Source: Burkholderiaceae bacterium (lineage in GTDB: Bacteria > Pseudomonadota > Gammaproteobacteria > Burkholderiales > Burkholderiaceae_B). From it: a stretch of DNA of 64,000 nucleotides. This document shows, in pieces, positions 5,236 to 23,115 of the stretch (positions are counted from its first letter, which is position 1; every line of letters starts with the position of its first letter). The translations under genes and the position numbers were made by a program. The DNA lies in the NCBI GenBank assembly GCA_017983955.1, contig JAGOAJ010000012.1, positions 46,010 to 110,009 on the forward strand, written 5' to 3'. Under the pieces are notes generated by a model, which saw only the letters and a list, made by a program, of their open reading frames with translations, ran no database searches and was not told where the DNA came from.

Positions 5236-5376
5236 AAAAAAATACTTGCGGGAAAACCCTGTACTGTAAAGCTCTATGATAATGCAAATAGGACATTTCC
5301 CATACCCTTTTGCTGTACAAGGCCTTGTTTTAACAATGACAATTACAGCCCGTCCACCCCACATTCCGTTGGCACT

Positions 5377-6576
5377 ATGTCACACTTAGGTATGAGCACC
5401 CGATTATCAACCGAAGAAGTCACCGCCTGGATACGGCTGTCGCTGGAACCCGACCTGGGGCCGGCACAAGCCCGTAATTTGTTGGCTGCGGTGGGCCTGC
5501 CTCAGGACATCTATGCGTTGTCCAGCAGCGCCTTACAGAAATACCTGCCTGCGGATATGGCCCGCCAGCTCAAGGCAGCAGCGCCTGCCGACGTGCAGGA
5601 CACCATAGCCAAAACGCTGGATTGGCTGCAAGACCCACGCCATCATCTGCTGACTTTGGCTGACCCTGCCTATCCGCCGGTATTGCTGGACATCCACGAC
5701 CCGCCCCTGGTGTTGTACGCTAACGGCAACCTGGATGCCCTGCAACGCCCAGCACTGGCCATCGTCGGCGCACGTAGCGCTACGCCTGCCGGGACAGACA
5801 ATGCGCTGGCCTTTGCCAAACACCTGGCGGCTCAGGGCTGGTGCATTATCAGCGGTCTGGCTCTAGGCATAGACACCGCCGCCCATGAAGGCGCGCTACT
5901 AGCGGGTGGCGCGGGGGCCACCATTGCCGTTATGGGCACCGGCATGGACATAGTCTACCCAGCGCGCAACCGCTTGCTGGCGCATCAGATCGCCGAACAC
6001 GGCCTGCTGCTATCTGAGTTTCCGCTGGGTACCCGTGCCCTGCCCTGGCAGTTTCCCAAACGCAATCGCATTGTCGCTGGCCTGTCCAAGGGCGTATTAG
6101 TGGTCGAAGCCGCCCGTCAAAGCGGCTCGCTGATCACCGCCCGCATGGCGTCCGACATGGGACGCGAAGTTTTTGCCATACCCGGGTCCATCCATTCGCC
6201 CCTGTCGCGCGGCTGCCACGCGCTGATAAGACAAGGGGCCAAACTGGTAGAGTCCGCCCAAGACATCAGCGACGAACTAGGCCTGCCCATTGGGGTGGTA
6301 AAAACACCGCTGCTAGCCCCACAGTCAGCGACACCGCCGCTATCAGCCCCATCACTGAAACAGCCCCAGACCAGTGCGCCGATCAGTGATGCTCCGGGCT
6401 ATGCCACCTTAATGACAGCACTGGGCCATGACCCCGTAGACGCCGACACCCTGCGACAGCGCACTAACTTGGACACTGGTGCCCTGCAGGCCTTGCTATT
6501 GCAACTGGAACTAGCCAATCACATTACACAACTGCCTGATGGCCGTTACCAACGACGGCTACCTCAATTAATATAG
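5377..6576 (+). CDS. dprA: DNA-processing protein DprA
   Basis: The 399-residue protein has the DprA/Smf layout: an N-terminal helical SAM-like region (about 1-75), a Rossmann-type domain starting [10 protein letters not shown] with the landmarks [18 protein letters not shown] and [13 protein letters not shown], and a C-terminal winged-helix domain (about 335-399). A low-complexity Pro/Ala/Ser linker joins the last two domains. DprA binds incoming single-stranded DNA during natural transformation and loads RecA. A second in-frame ATG lies five codons downstream (5392), so the exact start is uncertain. It is divergent from def. Confidence 0.95.
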
Positions 6577-6665
6577 GACCTGAATCACCAAGTGCTTTAT
6601 GATTCAAGTAACCTACACTTATATATAGGCACATGTTGCAGGACATTTTCACAAGGAAGCATGCC

Positions 6666-7574
6666 ATGGCACTGCCAGAACAGGTAAAAATCGTTGAGGT
6701 CTCGCCACGTGATGGGCTACAAAACGAAAAAGAATTCGTCCCTACCGCGGTCAAAATAGAGCTGGTCAACCGTCTTAGCGACGCAGGCTTCCCCAATGTC
6801 GAAGCGGTTTCCTTTGTGTCCCCAAAATGGGTTCCACAGATGGCGGACGGCGCTGACGTCATGGCGGGCATCAACCGCAAGCCTGGCACCTTATATTCTG
6901 CGCTAACCCCGAACCTGCGCGGCTTTGAGGCCGCCCTGGCAGCGGGTGTGGACGAAGTCGTTATCTTTGGCGCCGCCAGCGAAGCATTTTCCCAGAAAAA
7001 CATCAACTGCTCGATTGCCGAATCCATAGACCGTTTCCAGCCTGTGGCACAGGCCGCGAAAGCCGCCGGATTGCGTCTGCGCGCCAGCATCAGTTGCGCA
7101 TTAGGCTGCCCTTACCAGGGTGAAGTCCCCATCGCCGCCGTGATCGACGTCGTGCAGCGCATGCAGGCCCTAGGCGTAGACGAATTCGACATCGCTGACA
7201 CCATAGGCGTAGGCACGCCACTAAAAGTAGGCAAGGTCATGCGCGCCGTCACCGACATCATCCCGGCCAACCGCGTGGCCGGTCACTTCCATGACACCTA
7301 CGGTCAGGCGCTGGCCAACATCGTCGCCGCCATGGACGCCGGCGTGGCCATTTTCCATACCTCGGTCGCTGGCCTGGGCGGCTGCCCTTACGCCAAGGGC
7401 GCCACCGGCAACGTCGCCACCGAAGACGTGCTGTACATGCTGCATGGCATGGGCATACATACCGGCATCAACCTGGACGCCGTTGTCGACATAGGACAAT
7501 GGATATCCGCCCATCTGGGACGCAAAGCCAACAGCCGGGCAGGCAACGCCCTGGCCGCCAAAAAAGCCGGCTAA
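6666..7574 (+). CDS. Hydroxymethylglutaryl-CoA lyase
   Basis: The start at ATG 6666 (MALPEQVK) is chosen because AAGGA lies 8 bp upstream. An earlier in-frame ATG at 6633 has no such site. The 302-residue TIM-barrel protein belongs to the HMGL-like family. It has the divalent-cation site at VSPRDGLQNE, the metal-binding HFHDTYG motif, and the catalytic-cysteine loop GLGGCPYAKGATGN that marks true HMG-CoA lyases. These cleave 3-hydroxy-3-methylglutaryl-CoA to acetoacetate and acetyl-CoA in leucine catabolism. No other leucine-pathway genes are next to it. A related substrate cannot be excluded by sequence alone. Confidence 0.93.
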   Translation: MALPEQVKIVEVSPRDGLQNEKEFVPTAVKIELVNRLSDAGFPNVEAVSFVSPKWVPQMADGADVMAGINRKPGTLYSALTPNLRGFEAALAAGVDEVVIFGAASEAFSQKNINCSIAESIDRFQPVAQAAKAAGLRLRASISCALGCPYQGEVPIAAVIDVVQRMQALGVDEFDIADTIGVGTPLKVGKVMRAVTDIIPANRVAGHFHDTYGQALANIVAAMDAGVAIFHTSVAGLGGCPYAKGATGNVATEDVLYMLHGMGIHTGINLDAVVDIGQWISAHLGRKANSRAGNALAAKKAG

Positions 7575-7639
7575 GCGACTCAGCACATACACCGCGTGCT
7601 GCCGTGGCAGCCCCACGGCAGCGCACACAAAGGACCATC

Positions 7640-8110
7640 TTGGCAAGGCATACACAACCCAGCGAAGAAGAACAGTCGCAATTACTGGAAGACATAGGCC
7701 CCTTGCCCCTGCAAGGCCTGGCTTGGCCACGACGCATCAAAATCCTGGCCTGGATAGTGCTGGCAGTGATAGGCGCCCAACTTATCGTCACAGCGTCGGG
7801 CCCTAATGGGCAAAACATCAGTCCCCTGATTGCAGGCAGTGTTTTGCTGTGCTATCTGGGGCTGCTGGTGCTGGCTTGGTATATGCAAGTCTCGGTCACC
7901 ACCATCACCCACGTAGGCATACACCAAACTTGGATATCCCAACGCGAAGTCGCCTGGTCCGACATACAGTTCGCCAAGTTCATACCGTTATTCGCCTCTA
8001 AGCGGCTAATGTGCTTTACCGGGCGCGGCCGCCCTATCATTTTCCAGGCAGGCACCCGGGACCTGGAAATCGCGTTTGCGCGGATATCGTTGGTGTATAG
8101 ACGGCGGTAG
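7640..8110 (+). CDS. Small membrane protein of unknown function, possible PH-like cytoplasmic domain
   Basis: No named family is recognised with confidence. A TTG start at 7640 is preferred because AAGGA lies 5 bp upstream and outside the HMG-CoA lyase gene. The frame stays open further upstream but would then overlap that gene. The 156-residue product has a charged N-terminus, two closely spaced transmembrane segments (about IKILAWIVLAVIGAQLIV and AGSVLLCYLGLLVLAWYM), and a C-terminal part that reads like beta-strands, with THVGIHQTWISQREVAWSDI followed by RPIIFQAGTRDLEIAF. That pattern resembles bacterial PH-like membrane proteins, which is an inference. It may be translated from the mRNA of the upstream lyase. 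Confidence 0.6.
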   Translation: MARHTQPSEEEQSQLLEDIGPLPLQGLAWPRRIKILAWIVLAVIGAQLIVTASGPNGQNISPLIAGSVLLCYLGLLVLAWYMQVSVTTITHVGIHQTWISQREVAWSDIQFAKFIPLFASKRLMCFTGRGRPIIFQAGTRDLEIAFARISLVYRRR

Positions 8111-8198
8111 GCTACCATTTACTGCAGTTCCAAACCCCTATTCATCATTTCATCGCGATGCCCTCGTGGCATGCAACAACCATAAGAAAGGTACACCC

Positions 8199-8975
8199 AT
8201 GAGACACATATTCCGCATTTGTTTAGGTTTAGCCGCTGCATTGACGCTGGCCGCAACGGCCCAGGCGGGTCCCCGTTTAGATCGCATCATGGAAAGCAAA
8301 ACCATACGTGTCGGTACGCCAGGTGACTATCGTCCCTTTGCCATCAAAACAGACCAAGGCGGCTTCGAAGGCCACGACATTGATGTCATCGAAGCCATGG
8401 CGACACAACTGGGCGTCAAGGTGGAATATGTACAAAGCTCCTGGCCCACCCTGCTGGCCGACTTGTCAGCCGATAAGTTCGACGTCGCCGTAGGCGGTAT
8501 TACGCGTACAGCGGCACGCATAAGTAAAGTAGAAATGCTGCCTGGCTACGCCCCCTTTGGCAAAGTCGCCCTGGTACGCAAGGACGAAGCGTCCAAATAC
8601 AACTCCGTCAACGATTTGAACCAAGCGTCAGTGCGTGTCATTAAGAATCCCGGTGGCACCAATGAAATGTTTGTCCTTGAAAACTTGAAGCAGGCACAAG
8701 TCAGTACCCATGACAAAAATGCTGAAATCCCGGCACTGATCGCCGAAGGCAAAGGCGATGTCATGATTACCGAAACCTACGAAGCGCTGCACTACAGCAA
8801 AGCAGATCCTAGGCTTGCCGCCCGCTTCATTGACAAGCCACTGACACCCAAAAGCTATCTGGGCTTTATGTTGCCCGTGGACGATGCCGATTATGTGCGC
8901 GTAATGAAATTTTCCTGGGATCTGGCCGACGAACGTGATGTGCTTGACGCAGCGGAAGAGCGCTGGCTGGATTAA
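8199..8975 (+). CDS. Periplasmic solute-binding-fold protein, cyclohexadienyl dehydratase (PheC)-like
   Basis: The start at ATG 8199 gives a clean Sec signal peptide (cleavage after AQA, residue 23). Mature sequence begins GPRLDRIMESKTIRVGTPGDYRPF, which is very close in pattern to Pseudomonas PheC. The family-3 binding-protein fold is complete at 258 residues. PheC-type landmarks are PGGTNE (151-156) and TETYEA (191-196), whose E195 lines up with the catalytic proton-donor Glu of PheC as I remember that alignment. PheC converts prephenate to phenylpyruvate and arogenate to phenylalanine in the periplasm. No ABC permease or ATPase gene is adjacent, which favours an enzyme over an amino-acid transporter subunit. 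The exact substrate is unproven. Confidence 0.75.
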   Translation: MRHIFRICLGLAAALTLAATAQAGPRLDRIMESKTIRVGTPGDYRPFAIKTDQGGFEGHDIDVIEAMATQLGVKVEYVQSSWPTLLADLSADKFDVAVGGITRTAARISKVEMLPGYAPFGKVALVRKDEASKYNSVNDLNQASVRVIKNPGGTNEMFVLENLKQAQVSTHDKNAEIPALIAEGKGDVMITETYEALHYSKADPRLAARFIDKPLTPKSYLGFMLPVDDADYVRVMKFSWDLADERDVLDAAEERWLD

Positions 8976-9004
8976 GTCACAGATACAGTCCCGAATTAGT
9001 TAGA

Positions 9005-9050
9005 AACGCATTCACCGTAGCGCGACAAAAAACGCTGGCATGAATGCGTT
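9005..9050. terminator. Inverted repeat downstream of the PheC-like gene
   Basis: A perfect 10-bp inverted repeat (9005-9014 with 9041-9050, AACGCATTCA and its complement) encloses a shorter 4-bp repeat (AGCG at 9019-9022, CGCT at 9032-9035) around an A-rich loop. It lies 30 bp after the stop of the PheC-like gene and in the tail between two converging genes. Confidence 0.45.
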
Positions 9051-9055
9051 AAAAG

Positions 9056-9090
9056 TATAGGGCGCGCAGTAGCAAACTGCGCGCCCTATA
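9056..9090. terminator. Bidirectional terminator hairpin between converging genes
   Basis: A perfect 15-bp stem (9056-9070 with 9076-9090) with a 5-nt AGCAA loop and a GC-rich core lies between the converging PheC-like gene and the last gene of the catabolic operon. No long T-run follows on either strand, but position and stability make termination the best reading. Confidence 0.65.
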
Positions 9091-9108
9091 TACACATTGC
9101 GATAACAA

Positions 9109-9894
9109 TTACTGACCGTTGAATTCAGGCGTGCGCTTATTCAAAAACGCATCCACTCCTTCTTTGTAGTCAGCAGTGGCACCCATTTCATTTTGACTCT
9201 GTGCCTCTGCTTCAAGCTGCTCCTGTAAAGAATAGCGATAACTATGATCCAACAACACCTTCGCGCTTGCCAATGCTCGTGTCGGTCTTGCTGCTAGGTT
9301 CTCTACTAGGGCTTGCGCTTCTGCCTCAAGCTGATTGTCATCGACAGCCTGCCAAATCATGCCCCATTGCTCGGCCTGCTCCGCCGTGATCGGCAGCCCC
9401 AGCATGATCAAGCCCCGGGCTCGAGCATCCCCAACAAGACGTGGCAAATACCATGATCCACCGGTATCTGGTGTAAGCCCAATATTAGAGAATGCCTGGA
9501 TAAACTTGGCTGACCTTGCAGCAATCACGATATCGCACGAGAGAGCAAGATTAGCCCCAGCGCCAGCAGCGACACCATTGACGGCACAAACAACGGGCTT
9601 GTTCATGGCACGGATAGCCAGTGCTAAAGGATTATAAAACTCCTCAAGTGTCTGACGAAACGACTGTACGGGCTTGCCTTCCGTCTTGGCGCGCTCAGCC
9701 AAATCTTGACCTGCACAAAAGCCCCTGCCCGCGCCTGTTATTAAAAGCGCACGACACTGCGGGTCTTCTGCTGCCTGGGCTAAAGCGGCTAACAGTTCCT
9801 GCTTAAGCTCGGCGTTAAATGAATTCAAGCGATCAGGTCGATTCAGGGTAATCTTGCGCGACCGTTCAAAGACGTTAACTGTGATTGCATTCAT
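9109..9894 (-). CDS. Enoyl-CoA hydratase/isomerase family protein (PaaG-like crotonase)
   Basis: The 261-residue crotonase-fold protein has the oxyanion-hole segments RGFCAGQDLAER (57-68) and NGVAAGAGANLALSCD (106-121). At the two positions where hydratases carry catalytic glutamates, it appears to have N137 (in FSNIGL) and D143 (in TPDTGG). That pattern matches PaaG-type ring-epoxide and double-bond isomerases better than true crotonases, although no other paa genes are present. It is the last gene of the minus-strand operon and overlaps the citryl-CoA-lyase-like gene by 4 bp, so the two are translationally coupled. Its job is probably to hydrate or rearrange the CoA thioester handled by its neighbours. 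Confidence 0.85.
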   Translation of the reverse strand: MNAITVNVFERSRKITLNRPDRLNSFNAELKQELLAALAQAAEDPQCRALLITGAGRGFCAGQDLAERAKTEGKPVQSFRQTLEEFYNPLALAIRAMNKPVVCAVNGVAAGAGANLALSCDIVIAARSAKFIQAFSNIGLTPDTGGSWYLPRLVGDARARGLIMLGLPITAEQAEQWGMIWQAVDDNQLEAEAQALVENLAARPTRALASAKVLLDHSYRYSLQEQLEAEAQSQNEMGATADYKEGVDAFLNKRTPEFNGQ

Positions 9895-10661
9895 TTCGCA
9901 GCAGGCCCGTCGTAATTGATTTCAGACAGGGGGATCTGGCGCCAACCAGGTTCACGTACCATTTCTTCGTGGGCGTGGGCGAAAAGACCTGCTGTACGAG
10001 GCACTACAATGCAAGCGCGAGACACCCTCCAGTCCAGGCCCAGATCAGCTGAAATCGCACCGACCGCCGCATCAATATTTGCACCAATTTTGCGCCCTCT
10101 TTTCTTTTCGATTGCCCGCTCAATTGCCTGAGTCATGGCAATATGAGCACCCGCAACGCCTTCCTTTTCGGCAAGCTCAAACAGCACAACAGTACGTGGA
10201 TCGCCCGAGGGGTGCTGAGGATGGCCATATCCGGAAATACGCTTACGCGACGCCACATATTCCTGGGCTACCGTATCAAAGTCGCGTCCGCTTTCTTGAG
10301 CTTCAGATACAAGATCCATGATGTCGCGCGAGAACTCCTCGCCAGCTCCGCCGTGGATATCACCAAACATCATCACGCCAGCGGCGACAGAGCACTGAAT
10401 GGGTACACCTGCGGCCTGAATAAAGCGCGTTACCGTGGTCGAGGGAGATATCCCATGTTCTGCGCAGCAGATAAACAATGCATTAATTACTTTGACCTGA
10501 CCTTTTGTGGGTAATTTACCGGTCAGTAACAAATAGAACATTTCCACAAAGTCGACTTTGCCCACCAGGTCGGTAAGCATATCGTAGCCTCGAACGGTCA
10601 GCCCAGTATCGGTTGCTTCGGCAATCGCCGTTTTCCATGCATATTGTTTTCCATCACTCAT
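9891..10661 (-). CDS. Citrate-synthase-fold protein, citryl-CoA lyase-like
   Basis: At 256 residues this is much shorter than citrate synthase (about 430) but fits the short citryl-CoA lyase branch of that superfamily. The catalytic triad is present: H103 in GDIHGGAGE, H147 in SGYGHPQHPSGDPR, and D197 in GANIDAAVGA. Members of this branch cleave a 3-hydroxy-3-carboxy acyl-CoA such as citryl-CoA to acetyl-CoA and a 2-oxoacid. Lacking the N-terminal part of citrate synthase, it is unlikely to be a TCA-cycle enzyme. It lies in an operon with a CoA-transferase, an acyl-CoA dehydrogenase and a TRAP transporter, which points to a catabolic retro-Claisen role. A 64-bp gap separates it from the CoA-transferase gene upstream. 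Confidence 0.82.
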   Translation of the reverse strand: MSDGKQYAWKTAIAEATDTGLTVRGYDMLTDLVGKVDFVEMFYLLLTGKLPTKGQVKVINALFICCAEHGISPSTTVTRFIQAAGVPIQCSVAAGVMMFGDIHGGAGEEFSRDIMDLVSEAQESGRDFDTVAQEYVASRKRISGYGHPQHPSGDPRTVVLFELAEKEGVAGAHIAMTQAIERAIEKKRGRKIGANIDAAVGAISADLGLDWRVSRACIVVPRTAGLFAHAHEEMVREPGWRQIPLSEINYDGPAAK

Positions 10662-10725
10662 TTTTTATCTCCTAATGATTAATAAAGAAAAATTACTTTT
10701 TTGATTTAACTTAGAGCAGAAACAC

Positions 10726-11916
10726 TTAACTCAATAAAATATTCCGACGACGTAGATCATCTATTTCCTCTTGTGCATATCCAATCTCGGCTAGGATTTC
10801 TGCGCTGTGCTGGCCAAGTGCCGGTAAGTTGAGTTGGCGCCGTTGCTGGCCATCAATCCTTAGGGGCATGCTCACGCTTTTAAGGCACCCTTGCTCGACT
10901 GCAATTTCTTGCAGGGACTCGTTGTGTTGCACTTGTGGGTGTCCGGCCACCTGTGCATAGCTCAGGACATCGCCATAGATAATGCGCGTCGCTTGAAACA
11001 ATGCCTTCCATTCTTCGGAGGTTTTTTGTAGGAACTTCCCTTGCAACAAGTCGTGCAGAACGGCCCGATTTTCGATCCGCACTTCATTGCTGATAAAGTC
11101 CGGGTGCTCAACCAGCTCCTTTAAATCAAGGATGCGACAAAGCTCTGACCATTGGTTGGGAAAGTAAGCGGATACGATAAGTGTTCCATCTTGCGTTTTG
11201 AACACTTCAGCGGGCGCACCCAGCGGTGCTTTGTTACCTGTTCGGCCAGGCTCTACGCCGCTCATAAGGTATTCAGTTAGCGGGACAGCCTGCATGTAAA
11301 GCGCCACGTCCATTAAAGACATGCGCATACGGCATCCTTTACCTGTTCGTAGCTTACCGACCAAGCCTGCCAGAATGGATTTTGAAACGGCGAAGCCTGC
11401 TGCAGCATCAACTGCCGTAAAACCAATCTTCAGTGGTTGACCGCTCTCCTCTCCGGTTATGGACATAATCCCGCTTTCCCCCTGCACAAGCAGGTCTACA
11501 CCTGGACGTGTTGCCATGGGCCCATCTTCACCAAAGCCAGAAAAGGAAAGGTAAATAATGTCTGGTTTTATTTCGCACACCTGCTCGTAACTTAGCCCCA
11601 AGCGCTCTATGACCCCAGGTCGGAACGCCTCGACAATCACATCACAGCTAGCAATAAGCCGTTGAGCAGCCTGCAAACCCTCCGGGGATTGAAGGTCAAT
11701 TGCAATAGACCGCTTGCCTTTGTTGTAAGCGGCAAACGTGGCTGAAAACCCGTACTTTCGTGATTGCCCCATCCTGCGACTAGTATCTCCATTCGGGGTT
11801 TCCAGCTTGATCACGTCCGCGCCCAATTCAGCCAACATGGATGTGGCGGATGGCCCAGCGATAAGCTGGGACAAATCCAAAACGCGTATCCCTTCAAGTA
11901 CATATGTAGATAGCAT
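10726..11916 (-). CDS. CaiB/BaiF (class III) CoA-transferase
   Basis: The 396-residue protein is a typical family III CoA-transferase. It opens with LEGIRVLDLSQLIAGPSATSMLAELGADVIKLE, carries the GKRSIAIDL motif (67-75), and has the catalytic aspartate at D170 in GFTAVDAAAGF. These enzymes move CoA from a donor such as succinyl-CoA onto a free carboxylate through an aspartyl-CoA thioester. In this operon it is the likely activation step for the acid brought in by the TRAP transporter. The dctM gene lies 8 bp upstream in transcript order. The acceptor acid cannot be read from sequence. Confidence 0.93.
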   Translation of the reverse strand: MLSTYVLEGIRVLDLSQLIAGPSATSMLAELGADVIKLETPNGDTSRRMGQSRKYGFSATFAAYNKGKRSIAIDLQSPEGLQAAQRLIASCDVIVEAFRPGVIERLGLSYEQVCEIKPDIIYLSFSGFGEDGPMATRPGVDLLVQGESGIMSITGEESGQPLKIGFTAVDAAAGFAVSKSILAGLVGKLRTGKGCRMRMSLMDVALYMQAVPLTEYLMSGVEPGRTGNKAPLGAPAEVFKTQDGTLIVSAYFPNQWSELCRILDLKELVEHPDFISNEVRIENRAVLHDLLQGKFLQKTSEEWKALFQATRIIYGDVLSYAQVAGHPQVQHNESLQEIAVEQGCLKSVSMPLRIDGQQRRQLNLPALGQHSAEILAEIGYAQEEIDDLRRRNILLS

Positions 11917-11924
11917 GATGTTCC

Positions 11925-13268
11925 TTAGGAGGCGATATTAGGAAGAAAAGTGATTATTTTTGGGAAGGCAATAAACAGCCCGATAATGAACATTTCCGTG
12001 ACAATAAATGGGGCAGCACCACGGAAACCGTCAGCAGGAGTGACGGCACCACGTGAAGAACCTGCTACTACGTAAACGTTCATCCCTACAGGCGGACTTA
12101 CCAAGCCGATTTCTACCGTCTTGACCACAATGATTCCAAACCAGACCGGGTCATAGCCTAGCTGCATGATTACAGGAAACAGCAGAGGCATCGTCAAAAC
12201 CAGAATTTCCAGCTGGCTCAGAAACATGCCAAGGATTAGCAGCAGTGCTACTGTGGCGATCAAGATCACCCACGGCTCGACATCCAGCGCAATGATGGAT
12301 TCGGCCACAACACGTGTTACGCCCGTGGCAGTCAGAAAATACGAAAAGAAGTAAGCACCGATCAGAAGACTGACGATCATGCCGGTCGTCTTCAAGGTCT
12401 GCAAAACTGACGAACTAAGATTTTCCCGGTCAAAGGAATTGAAGTCGCTCTTCCAGATTATTGACCCCGCAAACCACACCAGTAGCGTAGCGATCGCCCC
12501 TAACGCACCAGCTTCTGTTGTCGTGACTATGCCCGCGTAAAGTCCGACAAAAACCGTCGCTACAACCAGGACAAAAGGCCAGGCAGCACGAGACTCGCGC
12601 CAACGTGTGGACCACGTGGCTGCTGGTCGACGCTGAGGTGCTGCCTCCGGGTCGACTCGTAGCCATATCATCACGGTAATAACATAAGCAATCGCCGTAA
12701 TTACCCCTGGAATGATCCCGGCAAGCAAGAGCTTTCGAATTGATGTCTCGGTAATAATCCCATAGATGATAAGAATAAGACTTGGGGGAATCAGCACCGA
12801 AAGCGTGCCCGCAATAGAAATCACACCGGCCGCCAGCGTACTGCGATAACCTGTTTCTTTCATTTGCGGGGCAGCAATACCGGCCATGGTTGCTGCGGCA
12901 GCCACACTTGATCCGGAGATAGCTCCAAAGGCAGCGCTTGCATAGACAGTTGCAATCGCAAGGCCACCCCGCATATGTCCGACAAAACTGTCGGCTGCGG
13001 CGAACAGCCTTTTTGTAATTCCGCTATGCGTAGCAAGTTCCGCCATGAATACAAAGGTGGCGATGGTGGTGAGCGTGTAGCTTGCTGTTGTTCGAAACGG
13101 CAGTGTTTCCAACATCCCTAAGGTGGGCCCAAGACCGAAGGTCATTAAAAGCCCGACAACTCCTCCTATGCCCAACGAAAAAGCCACGGGCAGGCCCGCA
13201 AACATCAATACGAAGAACAGGGCAATAGGTGCAAACAAGGAAAATTGATCAATCATTTCTAGTCTCAA
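11925..13268 (-). CDS. TRAP transporter large permease subunit (DctM type)
   Basis: The 447-residue, very hydrophobic protein has the DctM/TRAP-M pattern of about 12 membrane spans. Recognisable landmarks are LFFVLMFAGLPVAFSLGIGGVVG near the start, SGSSVAAAATMAG (the first hairpin region) and SPPVGMNVYVVAG near the end. It carries out sodium-driven import of an organic acid delivered by the P subunit. Its ATG overlaps the TGA of the Q subunit by 4 bp, so the two are translationally coupled. It sits between dctQ and the CoA-transferase gene. Confidence 0.95.
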   Translation of the reverse strand: MRLEMIDQFSLFAPIALFFVLMFAGLPVAFSLGIGGVVGLLMTFGLGPTLGMLETLPFRTTASYTLTTIATFVFMAELATHSGITKRLFAAADSFVGHMRGGLAIATVYASAAFGAISGSSVAAAATMAGIAAPQMKETGYRSTLAAGVISIAGTLSVLIPPSLILIIYGIITETSIRKLLLAGIIPGVITAIAYVITVMIWLRVDPEAAPQRRPAATWSTRWRESRAAWPFVLVVATVFVGLYAGIVTTTEAGALGAIATLLVWFAGSIIWKSDFNSFDRENLSSSVLQTLKTTGMIVSLLIGAYFFSYFLTATGVTRVVAESIIALDVEPWVILIATVALLLILGMFLSQLEILVLTMPLLFPVIMQLGYDPVWFGIIVVKTVEIGLVSPPVGMNVYVVAGSSRGAVTPADGFRGAAPFIVTEMFIIGLFIAFPKIITFLPNIAS

Positions 13269-13762
13269 TGTTCAGTGTAGGAAGATTTCTTGAACATCCA
13301 GGCTAGATGCGTAATAGCCGCTACCCCTGATCCAAGTGCAACAACGCCATAGGACAAAGCCGCCGGTATGCCAAAAGCGCCAATTGGACGCTGGTTTAGA
13401 ACATATGCCTCATAAGCTCTTGCGCCAGCTTGCCAAGCAATTGCCCCCAAGAACAAGGCAATAAGTACTGCAAATAGAATGGCTACAGGCTTTTCGACTG
13501 GCGCAAGCCACTTATCCGCAAAGTCCACGCGAATATGGCCTGCGATGCTGGCCAAATAAGGTAGTGAGAAAAAAACGCAAGCAGGAAAAAGCAGCTCACT
13601 AACAATGTTCGAGCTCCCTTCTATGGGGCTGTCAAATAAGGTACGACCGATGATGTCCCCACCCGACACAATCAGCATGCCCACAAGGGCCGCGCCCGCA
13701 ATGAAAGTCATTACCTTTATAACTGGACTTAAAATTCTTGTAACTGTCGTTCTGCAGCCCAC
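13265..13762 (-). CDS. TRAP transporter small permease subunit (DctQ type)
   Basis: The 165-residue protein has four predicted membrane segments and the DctQ landmarks DIIGRTLFDSPIEGSSNIVSELLF and GHIRVDFADKW. It forms the inner-membrane complex with the M subunit, whose gene it overlaps by 4 bp. The P-subunit gene lies 90 bp upstream on the same strand. Separate Q and M genes, instead of a fused QM protein, are the usual DctPQM arrangement. Confidence 0.93.
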   Translation of the reverse strand: MGCRTTVTRILSPVIKVMTFIAGAALVGMLIVSGGDIIGRTLFDSPIEGSSNIVSELLFPACVFFSLPYLASIAGHIRVDFADKWLAPVEKPVAILFAVLIALFLGAIAWQAGARAYEAYVLNQRPIGAFGIPAALSYGVVALGSGVAAITHLAWMFKKSSYTEH

Positions 13763-13852
13763 AAGTTTCTCCTAGGTACACATTCGTTTCCTGCCTGCCC
13801 GCAAGTGCTCAGCGGGCAGGTTTGAAAGACTAGCGTCTCTGGACTCTAGTTT

Positions 13853-14902
13853 TTAATTGATGACGGGAAACGCTTCATTACCACTCTCATAGTCTTTGCG
13901 GAAGCCGTTGAATTGCTCAAAGAGTGCCTCAGCGTCAATATTTGCTGCCTTTGCCTTTTTGGTCCATTCTTCGCTAACACCATCAAGCGCTTTAACCAAC
14001 TTGGCCTTGTCTTCATCTGACCATTCGTAGACCTGCAAACCTGCGGCCTTGTAGCGCTGCAGTGCTTCTGCATTCAGATTCGCAGCGGTTTCCGTGCCGA
14101 TCTGTGAATACTTACGACCTAGGTCCTTAAGGACGCCACGTTGTTCTTCATTCAAACTTTTTAGAAAGCGCGGAGTGGTGACTACGGCCAGGCCCGTCGT
14201 CACCACGTTATTGCCTATCGTCGTGTGCTTGAGTAGCTCGTTCATTTTGAACGACTCCCAAGAAGAGAACGAGAAGATGGTCGAGTCGACTAAACCACGC
14301 TGCATTGCCTCGTATTGATCGGGAGTAGCTACTTCATATGGGGTGGCTCCCATACGCTTGATCGTTTCTACGTAGGTAGCACCAGGCGAACGAAGTTTTA
14401 ATCCTTTTAAGGAGTCAAACCCTGTCAATGGCTTATCTGTGGAATGAATTTCATAGGCCGGATTCGCAAAGACCATCAGCGGCACTATTCCCAGCCTATC
14501 CCACTCGTCTTTAATAATGCCCGGCGTCTGGATCGCACGCCAAAGGATCGCGGCTGCCGTTGTACCGTCTAATCCCAACGGCAGGTTTGCAATTTGTGTT
14601 GCGGGCATTTCCTGAGCGTGATAAGTGAAGGTGACCCAGCCGATGTCTGCAATCCCAGATTGCAAAGTACGAATGGAGTCAGCCGCCTTGCCTAGTTGTT
14701 CAGATGGATAAGTTTGGATAACCAGCTCGCCGTTGGTACGCTCCTTGACCTCTTTGACAAAAGGCTCGATCGCACTTTTTGCATACACGTGTTGCGGGTT
14801 CAGATAGTAAGACAGGCGCGCGGCCCGCTCTGCATGGGCCGCAGCGCTTACGCACAACAGCCCCACACCGGCTAATACAATAGCTTTCAACATTGGCTTC
14901 AT
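13853..14902 (-). CDS. TRAP transporter substrate-binding protein (DctP type)
   Basis: The 349-residue periplasmic protein has a clear Sec signal peptide (cleavage about residue 24, AAAHA-ER). The DctP fold shows the conserved regions VYAKSAIEPFVKEVKERTNGEL, LPLGLDG and LKGLKLRSPGATY. The arginine in KLRSPG aligns with the arginine that ion-pairs with the ligand carboxylate in DctP proteins. The ligand is therefore probably an organic acid, but its identity cannot be read. The acyl-CoA dehydrogenase gene lies 34 bp upstream. As the second gene of the operon it is close to the promoter, which suits a protein needed in excess. Confidence 0.94.
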   Translation of the reverse strand: MKPMLKAIVLAGVGLLCVSAAAHAERAARLSYYLNPQHVYAKSAIEPFVKEVKERTNGELVIQTYPSEQLGKAADSIRTLQSGIADIGWVTFTYHAQEMPATQIANLPLGLDGTTAAAILWRAIQTPGIIKDEWDRLGIVPLMVFANPAYEIHSTDKPLTGFDSLKGLKLRSPGATYVETIKRMGATPYEVATPDQYEAMQRGLVDSTIFSFSSWESFKMNELLKHTTIGNNVVTTGLAVVTTPRFLKSLNEEQRGVLKDLGRKYSQIGTETAANLNAEALQRYKAAGLQVYEWSDEDKAKLVKALDGVSEEWTKKAKAANIDAEALFEQFNGFRKDYESGNEAFPVIN

Positions 14903-14936
14903 TGGAAGTCCTCCTCGATTGTGTAGTTTTGATTGT

Positions 14937-16088
14937 TTAATGGGAAGAGAGTCCCATTTCTCTGGCTACGACCATCGCCATTACCTCGTTAGCACCTCCT
15001 CCGATGCTTACAAGACGGCTATCCCTCATTAAGCGGCCCACTATGTTGTCCGCCATGTAACCCATCCCCCCCCAGAATTGCAAACAACCCTCAGGGATAG
15101 AACGAGCAAGTTTTCCTGTTTTTAGTTTCACCGCTGCAGTCAGCAAACGGGCCTGATCGCCTGCGAGAACCTCAACAACAGCTCGGTAAGTCATGGACTT
15201 GAGCGCCTCGATCTCCATTTGATACTCGGCCAGCGTGAATTGAATCCACTGATTATCTAAAATTGGCTTGCCAAAGACTTGACGCTGGCGTGTGTAATCC
15301 ACGGTCAGATCAACACACTGCTGCAGTTGCGAAACGGTTCGGGCAGCGACGACCAAGCGCTCATCAGTGAACTGCCCCATTTGATAGATGAAGCCGCGCC
15401 CTTCCTCTCCGATTCTGTTTGTTATTGGTACTCGTACATCATCAAAAAACAGTTGTGCCGTGTCAGAACTGTGCATTCCCATTTTTTTTAGAGGCGCTGA
15501 TCGCGAAACGCCTTTTACATTTAGGGGCACCACAATAAGAGACTTGTTCTTATGCGGTCCGTTTTCAGCAGAGGTATTGCACAGCAGGCAAACCCAGTCA
15601 GCCTGCGCGCCGTTGGTAATCCACATTTTGCTGCCATTGATCACGTAATCGCCGCCATCACGACGAGCAGTGGTCTTGATGTTGGCCACATCTGATCCGC
15701 CACCAGTCTCACTTACCCCCAGGCAGGCAACCAGGTCCCCCGCAATAGTCGGAGCCAAATACTCTTGTCTAAGCGCATCCGAACCATAGGCAGCTAAAGC
15801 TGGCGTGGCCATTTGACTGGTAATTGAAAGTCCGGTGGCAACACCACCTGCTGGGATACGGCCAATTTCTTCGGCCCAAACCATCGCATATGAGAGGTCC
15901 AAGCCCATGCCGCCGTACTCTTCAGGACGGTTGATACCAAGGAATCCAGCATTGCCGGCTTTTTTGCAGATTTCGTGAGCAGGCCAAGGACCGTTTTCCT
16001 CCCACTCATTCACAAAAGGAATAATCTCGCGGTCGACAAAACGACGAATAGCGTCGCGTATTTCTTCGTGAACGGGTCCGTAAATCAT
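14937..16088 (-). CDS. Acyl-CoA dehydrogenase
   Basis: The start at ATG 16088 (MIYGPVHEEIRDAIRRFV) is chosen because AGGAG lies 5 bp upstream. The longer in-frame reading to 16202 would run through the promoter and operators. The 383-residue flavoprotein has the FAD motifs CLGVSETGGGSD (122-133) and WITNGAQADW, and the C-terminal GGMGYM and SIGGGANEV. The position of the usual catalytic Glu (YEGT in MCAD) is Gly here. E243 in DERLVVAA corresponds to the helix-G catalytic Glu of isovaleryl-CoA-type dehydrogenases. That suggests a branched or bulky acyl-CoA substrate, which is an inference. It is the first gene of the seven-gene operon. Confidence 0.92.
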   Translation of the reverse strand: MIYGPVHEEIRDAIRRFVDREIIPFVNEWEENGPWPAHEICKKAGNAGFLGINRPEEYGGMGLDLSYAMVWAEEIGRIPAGGVATGLSITSQMATPALAAYGSDALRQEYLAPTIAGDLVACLGVSETGGGSDVANIKTTARRDGGDYVINGSKMWITNGAQADWVCLLCNTSAENGPHKNKSLIVVPLNVKGVSRSAPLKKMGMHSSDTAQLFFDDVRVPITNRIGEEGRGFIYQMGQFTDERLVVAARTVSQLQQCVDLTVDYTRQRQVFGKPILDNQWIQFTLAEYQMEIEALKSMTYRAVVEVLAGDQARLLTAAVKLKTGKLARSIPEGCLQFWGGMGYMADNIVGRLMRDSRLVSIGGGANEVMAMVVAREMGLSSH

Positions 16089-16157
16089 GAGGTCTCCTAG
16101 TTTTAGCGTCTGTTTTCCGAGAGCACCAATTAAATTCTCGGACTCTGTTGTTTTAGG

Positions 16158-16186
16158 AGAATACGGATGCTGACATAAAGTGTCAA
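16158..16186 (-). promoter_or_regulatory. Sigma-70-type promoter of the catabolic operon
   Basis: On the minus strand a consensus -35 box TTGACA (16181-16186) is followed by a 17-bp spacer and a -10 box TATTCT (16158-16163). This gives an expected start near 16150 and a leader of about 60 nt before the acyl-CoA dehydrogenase ATG. The -35 box lies inside the first operator copy (16179-16190), so a bound repressor would block it. Confidence 0.75.
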
Positions 16187-16203
16187 CACTTAGTGTTAAC
16201 ATT
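16179..16203. promoter_or_regulatory. Operator pair 1 (two 12-bp sites, 13-bp spacing)
   Basis: AGTGTCAACACT (16179-16190) and AGTGTTAACATT (16192-16203) are two near-palindromic copies of one motif spaced exactly 13 bp apart. The first covers the -35 box of the catabolic operon. They are probably binding sites of the divergent GntR regulator; FadR-subfamily repressors commonly use short GT...AC palindromes. Confidence 0.65.
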
Positions 16204-16268
16204 AGGGTTAATCAGTAGTCGTCGTTTCCAACACGTAAGACCTCATGGAAATACGCGAGGCGCATGAC

Positions 16269-16293
16269 AGTGTTAAAAGTAAGTGCTAACGTT
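16269..16293. promoter_or_regulatory. Operator pair 2 (two 12-bp sites, 13-bp spacing)
   Basis: AGTGTTAAAAGT (16269-16280) and AGTGCTAACGTT (16282-16293) repeat the motif and the 13-bp spacing of the first pair, 90 bp away. They precede the GntR gene by about 100 bp and suggest autoregulation, possibly with a DNA loop between the two pairs. A weak -10-like TAAAAT (16293-16298) adjoins the second site. Confidence 0.6.
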
Positions 16294-16389
16294 AAAATGC
16301 TTGAAAAGAGCATTGGCGACCACCCAAAATACTCAAGCCAAAATAAAGGCTGGAATTCTAAACGCCTAATAAGAAAGGATGAATGGCCA

Positions 16390-17073
16390 ATGTTGAGAAC
16401 AGTAGGAATCAGCGGACTGAGAGAACAAGACGGCCAAGAACTTACAGTAGAAGATCTCGCCGTGTTGATCCGAGACCAGCTCGTTACCTGGCCCTTAAGG
16501 GGTGGCGAGCGAATTTTTGAAGCTCAAATTGCTCGTGATATGGAGGTCAGCAGACCCCTTGTTCGCGAAGCGTGCCGCGTCCTGGAAAGTGAGGGGTTAC
16601 TTGTATATACCCAGAATAAGGGTTTTGCTCTTAAGCGACTGACGCGCGAAGAAGTACTCCACCTTGTAGAATTTCGTATTATTCTTGAAGAGGCGGCTTT
16701 TGTCGCTGCCGCCAGTCTGGAGGACCGTACCGAGGTCGTCGACCAGATGCGTAAGGCCTATCAAGGCATCGAAATGGCCTGTATTACCGAAGATCCGGCA
16801 CGGCAGATTTCTGCTGATGTGGCCTTTCACAGAGTCGTGATAGAGCATACGGGCAATCCATGGATACTTCATTCGTTCGACCGAATGAGCACACAGTTTC
16901 GCTATGCAATCCGACTCATGAGTCGATCTTTAAACGACTTTAAGGTTTATGCTCCATCGCATATAGTGCTGATAGACTATGTAGAGCAAGGTAACGCACA
17001 GCTAGCTCGAGAAGAAATCAATCGACACATCAGGATGTTCCTTCCCAACCTACTGAAGCGGATCAAGGAATGA
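16390..17073 (+). CDS. GntR-family transcriptional regulator (FadR/FCD subfamily)
   Basis: The start at ATG 16390 (MLRTVGISGL) is chosen because AGGA lies about 10 bp upstream. An open frame to 16264 would overlap the operator repeats. The 227-residue protein has an N-terminal GntR winged helix (about 16-85, with RIFEAQIARDMEVSRPLVREACRVLESEGLL). The C-terminal FCD ligand domain shows the metal-binding set D143, H147, H191 and H213. Regulators of this class usually repress a neighbouring catabolic operon until an organic acid or CoA ester binds. It is divergent from the seven-gene operon and almost certainly controls it through the repeated 12-bp sites between them. Confidence 0.93.
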   Translation: MLRTVGISGLREQDGQELTVEDLAVLIRDQLVTWPLRGGERIFEAQIARDMEVSRPLVREACRVLESEGLLVYTQNKGFALKRLTREEVLHLVEFRIILEEAAFVAAASLEDRTEVVDQMRKAYQGIEMACITEDPARQISADVAFHRVVIEHTGNPWILHSFDRMSTQFRYAIRLMSRSLNDFKVYAPSHIVLIDYVEQGNAQLAREEINRHIRMFLPNLLKRIKE

Positions 17074-17094
17074 AAACTTTGGTTTGAGCCTGCA

Positions 17095-18492
17095 TCATTC
17101 CCCCGACAAGACCACCTGTTCCGGTCCAAAGTATGTCTTGTCGATAGCATCAATAGCGGCGGCGTCCAGACTATCGGCCGCCGCATACAGGGTCAAGCGC
17201 GCCAGCACGTATTCCAGGCGAGCCTGGGTAAGGTCTAGCTTGGCCCGAAACAATTGATCCTCGGCGTCCAGAATATCCACGATGGTGCGTGTTCCCGCCT
17301 GGTATCCCATTTCGATGGCGCCCAATGCTGCTGCAGTGGATTCAACGGCTGTCACCAGGGCGTCGATACGTCGTGCACCACTAACTACGGCCTGGTATTG
17401 TCGCGTCACTTCCACTGCTACGCCTTCCTGCACTGCAGCAAGTTCCAAAGCAGCACGATCCTTGTTATGGCGTGCCTGGGTAACTTGTGCACTGGTTAAT
17501 CCACCTGAAAAAATAGGTACAGCGATCTGAACCCCGAACGAGCTCACTGTACTATTCTGCAAACGGGTAGAAATTGTTTCACCCACGACCTTACGCCGTG
17601 CCGCAACCAGATCAACTGTGGGTAAATGTCCGCCAAATGCACGGTCGATTTCGTAGTCGGAAATCTGCACGCTAAGCTGAGCTGAGCGTATTTCGGCGTT
17701 ATCTGCGCGGGCTTTCGTTTGCCAGATATTCTGGTTGGGTGAGCTGACCGGCTGGGGCTGGAAATCGCGTTTGAGTGTAGTGAGCCGTTGCGGGGAACTG
17801 CCCAACATTTCCTGAAGCTCGCGCCGCGCCACGATAAGGATGTCTTCGGCGTTGATCACGTCGGCCCGCGACAAGTCTCGCCTGGATTTGGATTCTCGCA
17901 CATCAATGATCGTGCCCTCACCACCTTCGTAGCGGCGCTGCGCCACGATAATCTGCTTTTCGTTGGCTTTCAGCCGGCTCTTGGCAAGCACTACATTCTC
18001 ATAGGACAACAGGGTCTGAAAATAGCGGTTGATTAGCCGGATAGATGTATCGGCTGCCTTGATATCAAAAACGGCCAGACTGTAGTCGGCTCGGGCATGT
18101 CCCTGTCGATATTCAGCAATGCGACTCCAATTGAACAGTACCTGGCTTAACTTGATTTCGTCGACACGGCTGGTGTAATCCAGATCGTTACAGTGGGGAC
18201 CGCATGGCCCCGGCAGTTCCAGCGTGCCACGAACTTTGCTTCTGCCCAAAGAAGCATTTATCTGCGGCAACAAGCCCGACCTGCCTATTGCCCGATTCGT
18301 TTCACCCGCCTTACGTTCGCTGATCGCCGCATGATAAGTAGCATCATTTTGCAAGGCCAGTCGCCAGGCTTGCGCCAAGGTCAAAGCTGGCTGCTGCGCG
18401 CTTGCAGACAACGGTTGTGCCGATAACGGCGCTGCTGCAAAGGCTGCACACAACAGGCACAGTGCGCTTACAAAAATCAGGACTGGCCTCAT
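17095..18492 (-). CDS. TolC-family outer membrane protein of the type I secretion system (copy 2)
   Basis: The 465-residue protein has a signal peptide (cleavage about AQP, residue 26) and two outer-membrane efflux repeats. Typical landmarks are LTLAQAWRLALQNDATYHAA, GLLPQINASLG, VSQVLFNWSRIAEYRQG-like text and YQAGTRTIVDILDAEDQLF. It forms the trimeric channel that crosses the periplasm and outer membrane. It starts 1 bp after the hlyD-type gene and is the last gene of the cluster; the GntR gene converges on it 21 bp away. It is clearly related to the other TolC-like protein at 21583-23031, so the cluster carries two outer-membrane partners instead of one. Confidence 0.92.
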   Translation of the reverse strand: MRPVLIFVSALCLLCAAFAAAPLSAQPLSASAQQPALTLAQAWRLALQNDATYHAAISERKAGETNRAIGRSGLLPQINASLGRSKVRGTLELPGPCGPHCNDLDYTSRVDEIKLSQVLFNWSRIAEYRQGHARADYSLAVFDIKAADTSIRLINRYFQTLLSYENVVLAKSRLKANEKQIIVAQRRYEGGEGTIIDVRESKSRRDLSRADVINAEDILIVARRELQEMLGSSPQRLTTLKRDFQPQPVSSPNQNIWQTKARADNAEIRSAQLSVQISDYEIDRAFGGHLPTVDLVAARRKVVGETISTRLQNSTVSSFGVQIAVPIFSGGLTSAQVTQARHNKDRAALELAAVQEGVAVEVTRQYQAVVSGARRIDALVTAVESTAAALGAIEMGYQAGTRTIVDILDAEDQLFRAKLDLTQARLEYVLARLTLYAAADSLDAAAIDAIDKTYFGPEQVVLSGE

Positions 18493-18493
18493 G

Positions 18494-19834
18494 CTATTGC
18501 TCCTTGAAAGACTTATCTAGCCTTTCAAGAAATGGCTTCAAAAAGTAGCTGAGCATGGTGCGTTCGCCGGTTCGAATCAACACCGAAGCGGGCATTCCTG
18601 GCCGAATCACATTCTTCCCCAACATCGGTACGCCTTCTGGGGTGATCTGGACCTGGGCCAGGTAATAAGGCATTCTGGAATCGGGGTCGGTCAGTCGGTC
18701 CGCCGACACGGTCAGCACTTTGCCTGGGATGTTCGGGGTGCTTGCATGATTGAAGGCCGGGAACGTGATCTCGACATCCAGGCCCGGAGCCATCTTGTCG
18801 ATCGCCTGCACTGGGATCTGCGCATGCACGACAAAATCAGTATTATTAGGAACCAGCTCCATCAAGACGGTATCGGGACCAATAACTCCGCCCACGGTAT
18901 GCACCTTTAGATTTTGTACATACCCATCAATAGGCGCACGAATTTCTGTTTCACGGACGGTGTAATCCAGGGCAGCCAGACGATCCGACAATGCTGATGC
19001 CTCTTTGCTCACGTCCGACAACTGGGACTGCACCTCTTTTTGGAAGTCTTGTGTACGTTGCAAGATGCGCAATTTCAATTCTGCGATTTGATTACGGGCA
19101 CGCCCCGTCTCGACCAGATCACTGGACAGCGCTGCCCTTAAATGTGAGGCGTCACGCTCTAGTGCCAACACGCGATTGCGGGGCAAATAGCCTTCTTTGG
19201 CCAGTTCGCGCACACCGGTAAGTTCGCGGTGTATAAAGCCAAGCTGGGCTTTACGGTTAGCGTGCACTTGAGTCAGGCCATTTAGCCCGATTTCCGCTCC
19301 ACTTTGGTTTTCACGCAAAATTTCAATTTCACCACTCAAGGCGTCGCGTCGGGTCTGGAACAGACGCGCCTGAGCGCGCGTGGCGTCAATAAAACGCCTA
19401 TCATCTTTGAATCGAGACGTTAGCTCAGGGTCATTTTCTATAACCCCCAGGTCGTCACGCTCGGCCAGCAAGCGAGCCTCGATGGCCTTGGCTGTAATGT
19501 ATTGGGAGCTGATTACGCCCTGTTCAGCAAGGGCGCGAGTACGGTTCAGGCGGACCAACACCTGGTTCGCCGTGACCCGATCGCCTTCGTGCACCAGGAT
19601 CTGCTCGATGGTGCCCCCTTCTAGGTGTTGTATGCTCTTGCGCTTGCCAGCCACATGCACCGTCGCGTCAGCTGGAATCCCCGCATCCAAAGGTGCAAAT
19701 GCGGCCCAATAAACAAAGCCGCCAAAACCAAGCACCAGTACCGCCAGCCCCCAGCGCAAAGGCGAAAGGGAATTTGTATCGACATTCACAGAGGATGCGT
19801 TTAACTCGCTGCCCGTTTGATTGATCTTATTCAT
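18494..19834 (-). CDS. HlyD-family membrane-fusion (adaptor) protein of type I secretion
   Basis: The start at ATG 19834 (MNKINQTGSELN) is chosen; the open frame continues upstream but into the ABC gene. The 446-residue protein has one N-terminal membrane span (LRWGLAVLVLGFGGFVYWAAF), a lipoyl-like half-motif (HVAGKRKSIQHLEGGTIEQI), a long coiled coil (about 120-300), and the C-terminal barrel with VHTVGGVI and VPNNTDFVVHAQI. It is of the PrtE/HlyD type that links the inner-membrane ABC protein to TolC. It starts 7 bp after the ABC gene stop, so it is part of the same transcript. Confidence 0.94.
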   Translation of the reverse strand: MNKINQTGSELNASSVNVDTNSLSPLRWGLAVLVLGFGGFVYWAAFAPLDAGIPADATVHVAGKRKSIQHLEGGTIEQILVHEGDRVTANQVLVRLNRTRALAEQGVISSQYITAKAIEARLLAERDDLGVIENDPELTSRFKDDRRFIDATRAQARLFQTRRDALSGEIEILRENQSGAEIGLNGLTQVHANRKAQLGFIHRELTGVRELAKEGYLPRNRVLALERDASHLRAALSSDLVETGRARNQIAELKLRILQRTQDFQKEVQSQLSDVSKEASALSDRLAALDYTVRETEIRAPIDGYVQNLKVHTVGGVIGPDTVLMELVPNNTDFVVHAQIPVQAIDKMAPGLDVEITFPAFNHASTPNIPGKVLTVSADRLTDPDSRMPYYLAQVQITPEGVPMLGKNVIRPGMPASVLIRTGERTMLSYFLKPFLERLDKSFKEQ

Positions 19835-19841
19835 GGTTGAC

Positions 19842-21578: not shown

Positions 21579-21582
21579 GGTT

Positions 21583-23031: not shown

Positions 23032-23115
23032 AGGCCCTCCTGGGTATCCGCACGCCATGACGGCAAGCGATACCTTGTAGTCTTGTAATGCAAGAACACA
23101 GCGAGATAAGCAGCA

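Follow-up and report, generated by a model that had tools for sequence, protein, structure and literature searches.

A TRAP-linked operon with a citrate-synthase-fold lyase on a probable genomic island: a candidate route for 2-substituted succinates in a Burkholderiaceae bacterium

Which acid does an operon consume when it encodes an importer, an enzyme that transfers coenzyme A (CoA), an acyl-CoA dehydrogenase, a crotonase and a short protein of the citrate synthase fold, and is the chemistry it suggests new? The question is raised by seven adjacent genes in a 64,000-nucleotide stretch of a Burkholderiaceae bacterium (GenBank assembly GCA_017983955.1, contig JAGOAJ010000012.1, positions 46,010 to 110,009 of the forward strand), called the window below. 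With belief and doubt about evenly balanced, we read the genomic island that holds these genes as a catabolic route that would turn a 2-substituted succinate, R-CH(COO-)-CH2-COO-, or an unsaturated analogue of it into acetyl-CoA and a 2-oxoacid. An earlier note on this DNA had proposed import of an acid, CoA transfer, dehydrogenation, hydration or isomerization and cleavage as a possible new route. That interpretation is partly supported: it is right in outline, its logic is not new, it is weak at hydration, and it is open on the substrate.

In the pathway as we picture it, the tripartite ATP-independent periplasmic (TRAP) transporter DctPQM, a clear member of its family, would take in the acid, and the class III CoA-transferase would take CoA from a donor, for example succinyl-CoA, and attach it to the carboxylate on the CH2 side. 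The dehydrogenase, whose type is set by a catalytic base in helix G, would then introduce an alpha,beta double bond at the beta-branched position, and the PaaG-like crotonase, to judge from its active site, may bring a beta,gamma double bond into conjugation. Hydration to a 3-hydroxy-3-carboxyacyl-CoA is the gap in this scheme and would fall to a hydratase encoded outside the operon or to a putative activity of the crotonase. The lyase, whose family and catalytic triad are clear, would finally release acetyl-CoA and R-CO-COO-, and a divergent GntR regulator may control the operon from a palindrome lying over the -35 box.

The operon and its citrate-synthase-fold lyase

Open reading frame (ORF) coordinates and a Pfam search agree on seven co-directional minus-strand genes that fill positions 9109 to 16088, with every position confirmed:

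9109..9894, minus strand: crotonase, PaaG-like, with an isomerase-type active site (Pfam, NCBIfam, alignment)
9891..10661, minus strand: short citrate-synthase-fold C-C lyase of the citryl-CoA-lyase family, 256 aa, triad H103/H147/D197 intact
10726..11916, minus strand: class III CoA-transferase, D170, nearest solved relative 9br7
11925..13268, minus strand: DctM, large TRAP permease; TTG start, ATG at 13256 also possible
13265..13762, minus strand: DctQ, small TRAP permease (Pfam)
13853..14902, minus strand: DctP, TRAP solute-binding protein (Pfam)
14937..16088, minus strand: acyl-CoA dehydrogenase, helix-G base E243 (branched-acyl type); ORF open to 16202

The order of transcription is acyl-CoA dehydrogenase (ACAD), DctP, DctQ, DctM, class III CoA-transferase (CAT), citrate-synthase-fold lyase (CCL) and crotonase (ECH), and each product scores above the cut-off of its Pfam family (ACAD in three domains, DctP, DctQ, DctM, CoA_transf_3, Citrate_synt and ECH_1). 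All three components of a TRAP transporter are present. The seven coupled genes read in the earlier note were all recovered, as were the residues it had singled out in the lyase (H103/H147/D197), the transferase (D170) and the dehydrogenase (E243), which sequence and alignment confirm. CCL and ECH overlap by 4 bp, as do DctQ and DctM, and the remaining spacers measure 8 bp (CAT-DctM), 34 bp (DctP-ACAD), 64 bp (CCL-CAT) and 90 bp (DctQ-DctP). The dehydrogenase start at 16088 has AGGAGA upstream and is shared with the four closest compared homologues.

The lyase reaches 288.9 bits against the NCBIfam model for citryl-CoA lyase, NF004866 (PRK06224.1-3), above its cut-off of 245, and its profile aligns with the solved citryl-CoA lyase 6hxp over positions 7-258 of 259 at 271 bits. 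We surveyed relatives in 75 neighborhoods: the window, loci L040 and L041, 60 of 66 genome places (E up to 8.6e-26), and 12 plasmid loci, namely, 11 of 133 records plus L046, which was found via DctP. One locus (L065) was dropped when its ORF was not extractable, leaving 74 aligned lyases. Neighboring genes were labeled by tblastn to reference proteins, a procedure that misses families outside the reference set.

The H/H/D triad is kept in 17 of the 74, the window's lyase included. The other 57, which we call degenerate, keep the second His, while the first is replaced by Phe, Ile, Val, Tyr or a gap and the Asp by Thr, Ser, Ala or Val; lacking equivalents of H103 and D197, these relatives can hardly be expected to carry out ordinary citrate-synthase chemistry. 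In a tree of 75 rows, which included one added triad-bearing row from another family and was rooted at the midpoint for drawing only, a single branch (99/95) separates the 18 triad-bearing rows from the rest, and the window lyase groups with proteins of Ramlibacter and Burkholderia sp. L27 (100/98).

Triad-bearing lyases tend to have a CoA-transferase as a close neighbor. Of the 17, 13 have a transferase of class III no more than 500 bp away, and none has an AMP-forming ligase that close; among the 57 degenerate lyases, each of the two is found at this distance in 16 cases. First-look counts in 21 genomes gave a background of up to about 15 transferase candidates per Mb (40 in 2.6 Mb). At that density, chance alone would place one in a 3-kb space in about 5% of cases at most. 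The rows are related by descent, and for this reason we attach no p-value to the proximity.

The two nearest lyases found belong to Ramlibacter aurantiacus (65%, at L040) and Burkholderia sp. L27(2015) (67%, at L041). The first is surrounded by an NDP-forming CoA ligase, two TauD-type dioxygenases, a class III transferase, an MmgE/PrpD protein, TctC and hydantoinase A/B, and the second by a protein of the PEP-mutase/ICL family, ACAD domains, an NDP-forming CoA ligase, TctC and an aconitase-family protein. Judged by their families, these neighbors could be suited to substituted succinates or malates as well. One type of 2-substituted malyl-CoA could then be supplied to one type of lyase in three ways: by dehydrogenation, by hydrating an unsaturated acid or by direct hydroxylation.

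One special case, R = CH2COO-, deserves separate weighing. In a CoA-dependent tricarballylate or aconitate route, tricarballyl-CoA would be converted via aconityl-CoA and citryl-CoA to acetyl-CoA and oxaloacetate, which would suit a lyase whose nearest solved relative is the citryl-CoA lyase 6hxp. The lyase also has possible counterparts (H69, R156, R222 and R241) of what we take to be the oxaloacetate-holding positions of citrate synthase; R241 is invariant in a four-sequence alignment, its match to citrate synthase being uncertain. Aconityl-CoA has two double-bond positions and would give an isomerase a job. Tricarballylate is otherwise handled by TcuABC, and a search of the bacterium's own genome (94.5% complete) for TcuB (TIGR02484) gave no match; TcuA and TcuC were not searched. 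That absence is not firm, however, since only one of 14 controls gave even a weak match, none was above the cut-off, and the genome is incomplete. Three of the four residues are common to the degenerate relatives (H69 in 73, R156 in 74 and R222 in 73 of the 74 aligned lyases) and are therefore not specific to citryl-CoA, and the operon holds no hydratase. Nor did alignment identify any gained charged residue by which the dehydrogenase might hold the extra carboxylate: relative to four compared relatives it has gained Arg at 58, 234, 269 and 352 (numbered in the long ORF), and none of these can be placed in the active site from sequence. We consider the tricarballylate route unlikely. Slightly less likely still is its fuller form, a mobile pathway for tricarballylate or aconitate that would end in a stand-alone citryl-CoA lyase of the citrate synthase fold and use the PaaG-derived crotonase as aconityl-CoA isomerase, perhaps also as hydratase; if true, it would be a further way, besides TcuABC, of feeding a tricarboxylate into the tricarboxylic acid (TCA) cycle.

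The survey also revealed how many of the relatives are missing two of the catalytic residues, which may be its more surprising by-product. In 10 of 10 surveyed plasmid loci with a lyase annotated as citryl-CoA lyase, those two residues are absent, and a CoA-transferase or CoA ligase is encoded no further than 7 kb from 48 of the 57 degenerate lyases. At L052:7012-15633 on a Burkholderia glumae plasmid, and at L051, L066, L102 and L104, a degenerate lyase accompanies an intradiol ring-cleavage dioxygenase and a CoA-transferase; L052 also holds an FAD hydroxylase and LeuCD. By gene content, these loci look like an aromatic pathway with a CoA-dependent step. Degenerate lyases and CoA-transferases also occur near LigB-type extradiol dioxygenases at L047, L056 and L102, the first of which has an amidohydrolase as well and a TcuB annotation further off.

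The order of chemistry and the hydration step

The order of chemistry is already known. In Cupriavidus necator and Pseudomonas aeruginosa, an itaconate/methylsuccinate cluster encodes a CoA-transferase, a methylsuccinyl-C4-CoA dehydrogenase, a hydratase and a citramalyl-CoA lyase, and the hydratase has both itaconyl-CoA isomerase and mesaconyl-C4-CoA hydratase activities, as described in PMC12290011. The genome under study has a five-gene set that matches this cluster at G000:C26 (L141:252-6714), consisting of a protein with a FAS1/MaoC-type dehydratase region, an ACAD, a class III transferase, an MmgE/PrpD protein and a CitE-type lyase, together with a LysR regulator. We call these genes Ich, Mcd, Ict, Msi and Ccl by content rather than by curated match; the best NCBIfam match of the lyase, RipC_Ccl, reaches 157.2 bits where the cut-off is 375. 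The window's dehydrogenase and transferase belong to the same families as their counterparts at G000:C26, to which they are 30% and 31% identical. No Ich-type hydratase, CitE-type lyase or MmgE/PrpD isomerase is found in the window operon. The operon is a second version of the known chemistry with another lyase and another crotonase-type enzyme, and it probably serves another acid than the cluster at G000:C26.

It could be argued that the operon is instead a second methylsuccinate/itaconate pathway that happens to use a different lyase and isomerase. The order of steps is that of the cluster as outlined in PMC12290011, and a class III transferase and a helix-G Glu are common to the genome's own Ict-like and Mcd-like proteins. 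Yet the five-gene set for this purpose is already present, and the paralogues are no closer than the identities given above; we find this explanation very doubtful. Because the genome has that separate cluster, methyl is unlikely as R, and both itaconate and the methylsuccinate-like acid that the earlier note had suggested are downgraded to unlikely substrates.

The helix-G Glu of the dehydrogenase is E281 of the long ORF, or E243 counted from the start at 16088, and the J-K-loop position is a Gly (SIGGGANEV). We take a helix-G Glu without a J-K-loop Glu to mark the isovaleryl, or branched-acyl, type. Such a base fits a beta-branched substrate, for which CoAS-CO-CH2-CH(R)-COOH would be a candidate, and the genome's own Mcd-like enzyme has Glu at the same column. 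The transferase matches PF02515 at 380.2 bits (cut-off 23.3), and its D170 aligns with the Asp, presumably catalytic, of its nearest solved relative, the succinate-HMG CoA-transferase 9br7. The dehydrogenase falls below the cut-off of every NCBIfam model it matches, and the transferase below that of every NCBIfam equivalog it matches.

In the crotonase, two columns that hold Glu in hydratases are occupied by Phe135 and Gly161, and Asp143 lies in the motif TPDTGG; we assume the two columns to be those of Glu144 and Glu164 in rat enoyl-CoA hydratase. Another crotonase of the same genome (L124) has Glu at both. The PaaG of the genome's own paa operon is 52% identical to the window crotonase and has the same Asp, Phe and Gly. 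It scores 419 bits against the PaaG equivalog TIGR02280, and the window crotonase, at 340 bits, is just under the cut-off of 345.15. PaaG is the isomerase of 1,2-epoxyphenylacetyl-CoA and of Delta3-Delta2-dehydroadipyl-CoA. PMC4498308 and PMC9493321 describe an isomerase that also shifts the double bond of 3,4-dehydroadipyl-CoA to the 2,3 position, with a single catalytic glutamate according to the former and with Asp136 as proton relay according to the latter. With neither hydratase Glu in place, the active-site columns rule out a canonical hydratase, and the doubt already voiced in the earlier note, that the crotonase is PaaG-like and may lack hydratase residues, proved right. The likeliest role for the enzyme, on the strength of these columns, would be to shift a double bond so that it is conjugated with the thioester.

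Hydration is consequently left without a gene here, and the genome's own Ich-like enzyme at G000:C26 could supply it in trans. The steps of the proposed order that stand best are import, CoA transfer, dehydrogenation and lyase-type cleavage; hydration, which would need more than an isomerase-type crotonase, does not stand equally well.

Several further points weigh against the 2-substituted succinate reading. No hydratase gene is found in either the operon or the island, and membership in the TRAP family does not fix the ligand of the transporter. The nearest plasmid relatives of the dehydrogenase (50-55% identical) lie in operons that resemble those for branched or terpenoid acids. In Achromobacter and Acinetobacter plasmids these operons contain carboxylases and AtuA-type proteins, and in a Tistrella plasmid the operon has a TRAP transporter, an AMP-binding ligase, an enoyl-CoA hydratase-like protein and a divergent GntR; their gene content would suggest hydrophobic branched acids. 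An ACAD is within 7 kb of only 4 of the 17 triad-bearing lyases. The operon as a conserved module is not supported, as CAT, ACAD and ECH occur together within 7 kb at 1 of these 17 loci, that of the window itself; the same set surrounds a degenerate lyase at two loci, L054 (Roseomonas) and L057 (Natrinema).

This scarcity of dehydrogenases also gives room to the idea that transferase and lyase alone use an imported 2-hydroxy acid of the citrate or citramalate type, leaving the dehydrogenase and crotonase to serve another acid. Most triad-bearing lyases do have a transferase and TctC within 3 kb (13/17 and 11/17) and no ACAD nearby, and such use would require no hydratase. However, transcription of the operon begins with the dehydrogenase gene, and the crotonase gene overlaps that of the lyase. 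A division of the operon between two acids seems improbable to us.

A rare probable island and its divergent GntR regulator

Comparison with a sibling species of the same genus (G399) delimits the island, which includes the following features besides the operon:

8110..17110, no strand: island comprising the operon, the GntR gene and one further gene; 9.0 kb, absent at the exact site in G399
8199..8975, plus strand: protein of the family-3 binding-protein fold, cyclohexadienyl-dehydratase-like; nearest solved relatives are cyclohexadienyl dehydratases (5jos, E 1.5e-67)
16158..16186, minus strand: candidate promoter TTGACA-17-TATTCT upstream of the operon (pattern match)
16181..16201, no strand: palindrome TGTTAACACTAAGTGTTGACA, 10-nt arms, 90% complementary; overlaps the candidate -35 box
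16271..16290, no strand: second, weaker version of the palindrome, TGTTAAAAGTAAGTGCTAAC, 80% complementary to the first stretch as an inverted repeat
16390..17073, plus strand: GntR/FCD regulator, divergent from the operon; ORF open from 16264, with 16390 chosen as the likely start

G399 keeps window positions 4866-8109 (79.2% DNA identity) and 17111-29780 (74.7%) adjacent, with 23 bases between them. The GC content of the island is 0.504, compared with 0.560 in the rest of the window. G399 also lacks positions 29781-39011, about 9.2 kb of ordinary GC content (0.575) in place of which it has about 0.36 kb, so presence and absence alone are a weak sign of insertion. One sibling cannot separate insertion from loss; low GC and rarity favor insertion of 8110-17110, and the island was probably acquired laterally. 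No direct repeats of 10-20 bp were found within 150 bp of its borders, and no tRNA genes in the window.

The rarity is plain in the genome samples searched, one of the order and one of the phylum, which overlap. In the order sample, the other 299 of 300 genomes contain nothing that matches DctP at E <= 1e-50 or the CoA-transferase at E <= 1e-110, and in the phylum sample the other 234 of 235 lack a DctP match at E <= 1e-45. Plasmids yielded relatives of DctP in 4 records at E <= 1e-30, with about 30% identity, and of the transferase in 36 records at E <= 1e-70, the best at 42.1%. The locus of one of these DctP relatives (L046) has DctPQM, CoA-transferases, ACADs, GntR and a degenerate lyase. 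A search for the lyase in viral contigs gave no match.

The dehydratase-like gene at 8199-8975 shares the island and is at most a candidate member of the pathway. No ABC permease gene is found on the island. The order sample (the other 299 of 300 genomes) contains five relatives of its protein (38-70% identity), and one plasmid relative was found. Four of the five adjoin none of the reference families, and the fifth adjoins the degenerate-lyase locus L098, where the relative (L098:8861-9475, 39%) is the sole match in the 74 lyase loci scanned, the window excluded.

This gene bears on the chance that R is hydrophobic or aromatic, which is also possible. Under that explanation the substrate would be a succinate of the phenyl- or benzylsuccinate type, and the products would be acetyl-CoA and an aromatic or long-chain 2-oxoacid. 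A cyclohexadienyl-dehydratase-like gene on the same island would be in keeping with it, as would the branched- or terpenoid-type relatives of the dehydrogenase and the closeness of the crotonase to the genome's own PaaG, and the family III transferase IaaL acts on phenylsuccinate, according to PMC11659651. On the other side stand the distribution of the dehydratase-like relatives just described and a DctP that is only distantly like solved relatives (best 110.9 bits). We give an aromatic or other hydrophobic succinate a small but appreciable chance. The broader reading, a 2-substituted succinate whose R is left general, is the one we retain.

The regulator gene diverges from the operon, and its Pfam GntR match starts at residue 63 of the ORF opening at 16264. 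Both palindromes sit in the space between the dehydrogenase gene and the GntR gene, and the final six bases of the first are the TTGACA of the promoter-like site. With 7 promoter-like matches in the region against 8.0 expected, such sites are no more frequent than chance would have it. The exact palindrome pattern, with up to 3 mismatches, has no other occurrence within the window, and we infer that the palindrome at 16181-16201 is a candidate operator of the divergent GntR.

Beside the island, in the stretch shared with G399, positions 17095-21608 hold TolC-like, HlyD-like and ABC-exporter ORFs of the type I secretion kind, named from a reading of the sequence.

Comparison with known systems

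The possible novelty of the route survives in its late enzymes, which differ, and not in its logic, which is published for methylsuccinate in PMC12290011. The open PMC literature yielded nothing that combines citryl-CoA lyase, CoA-transferase, acyl-CoA dehydrogenase and TRAP transporter, and nothing that combines tricarballylate, TRAP transporter and catabolism; one paper there, on a glacier metagenome, has both tricarballylate and citryl-CoA. A word search of PMC9875883 gave no hit for TRAP, citryl or tricarballylate. If we read the pathway rightly, a citrate-synthase-fold lyase and a PaaG-derived isomerase replace the CitE-type lyase and the hydratase of the methylsuccinate route. One chemical logic would then have been built twice from different parts within one genome, and one member of a family annotated as citryl-CoA lyase would gain a testable catabolic role.

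Like the Ict-Mcd-Ich-Ccl pathway of PMC12290011, the proposed route would transfer CoA, dehydrogenate a C4-CoA ester, employ an isomerase or hydratase and cleave to acetyl-CoA and a 2-oxoacid. The cluster at G000:C26 shares a class III transferase with the window operon. Its lyase, however, is of the CitE/HpcH type, whereas that of the window has the citrate synthase fold; its presumed hydratase has a FAS1/MaoC-type region, whereas the window has a PaaG-like crotonase; and it includes an MmgE/PrpD protein that has no counterpart in the window operon.

The TcuABC route resembles the proposed one in a possible substrate, but TcuB is unmatched in this genome and the window's chemistry would run on CoA esters. 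PaaG is the nearest crotonase family, with Asp, Phe and Gly at the same columns; the window crotonase nevertheless falls just under the equivalog cut-off, and the true PaaG of this genome is in its own paa operon. The degenerate relatives found beside CoA-transferases and CoA ligases resemble the window lyase in family and style of neighborhood, but 57 of the 74 aligned lack both H103 and D197, and the window lyase has the two. The citryl-CoA lyase 6hxp, which has a role in the reverse TCA cycle, agrees with the window lyase in family, length class and triad. Unlike 6hxp, the window lyase sits in a catabolic-looking operon, side by side with an importer and a CoA-transferase.

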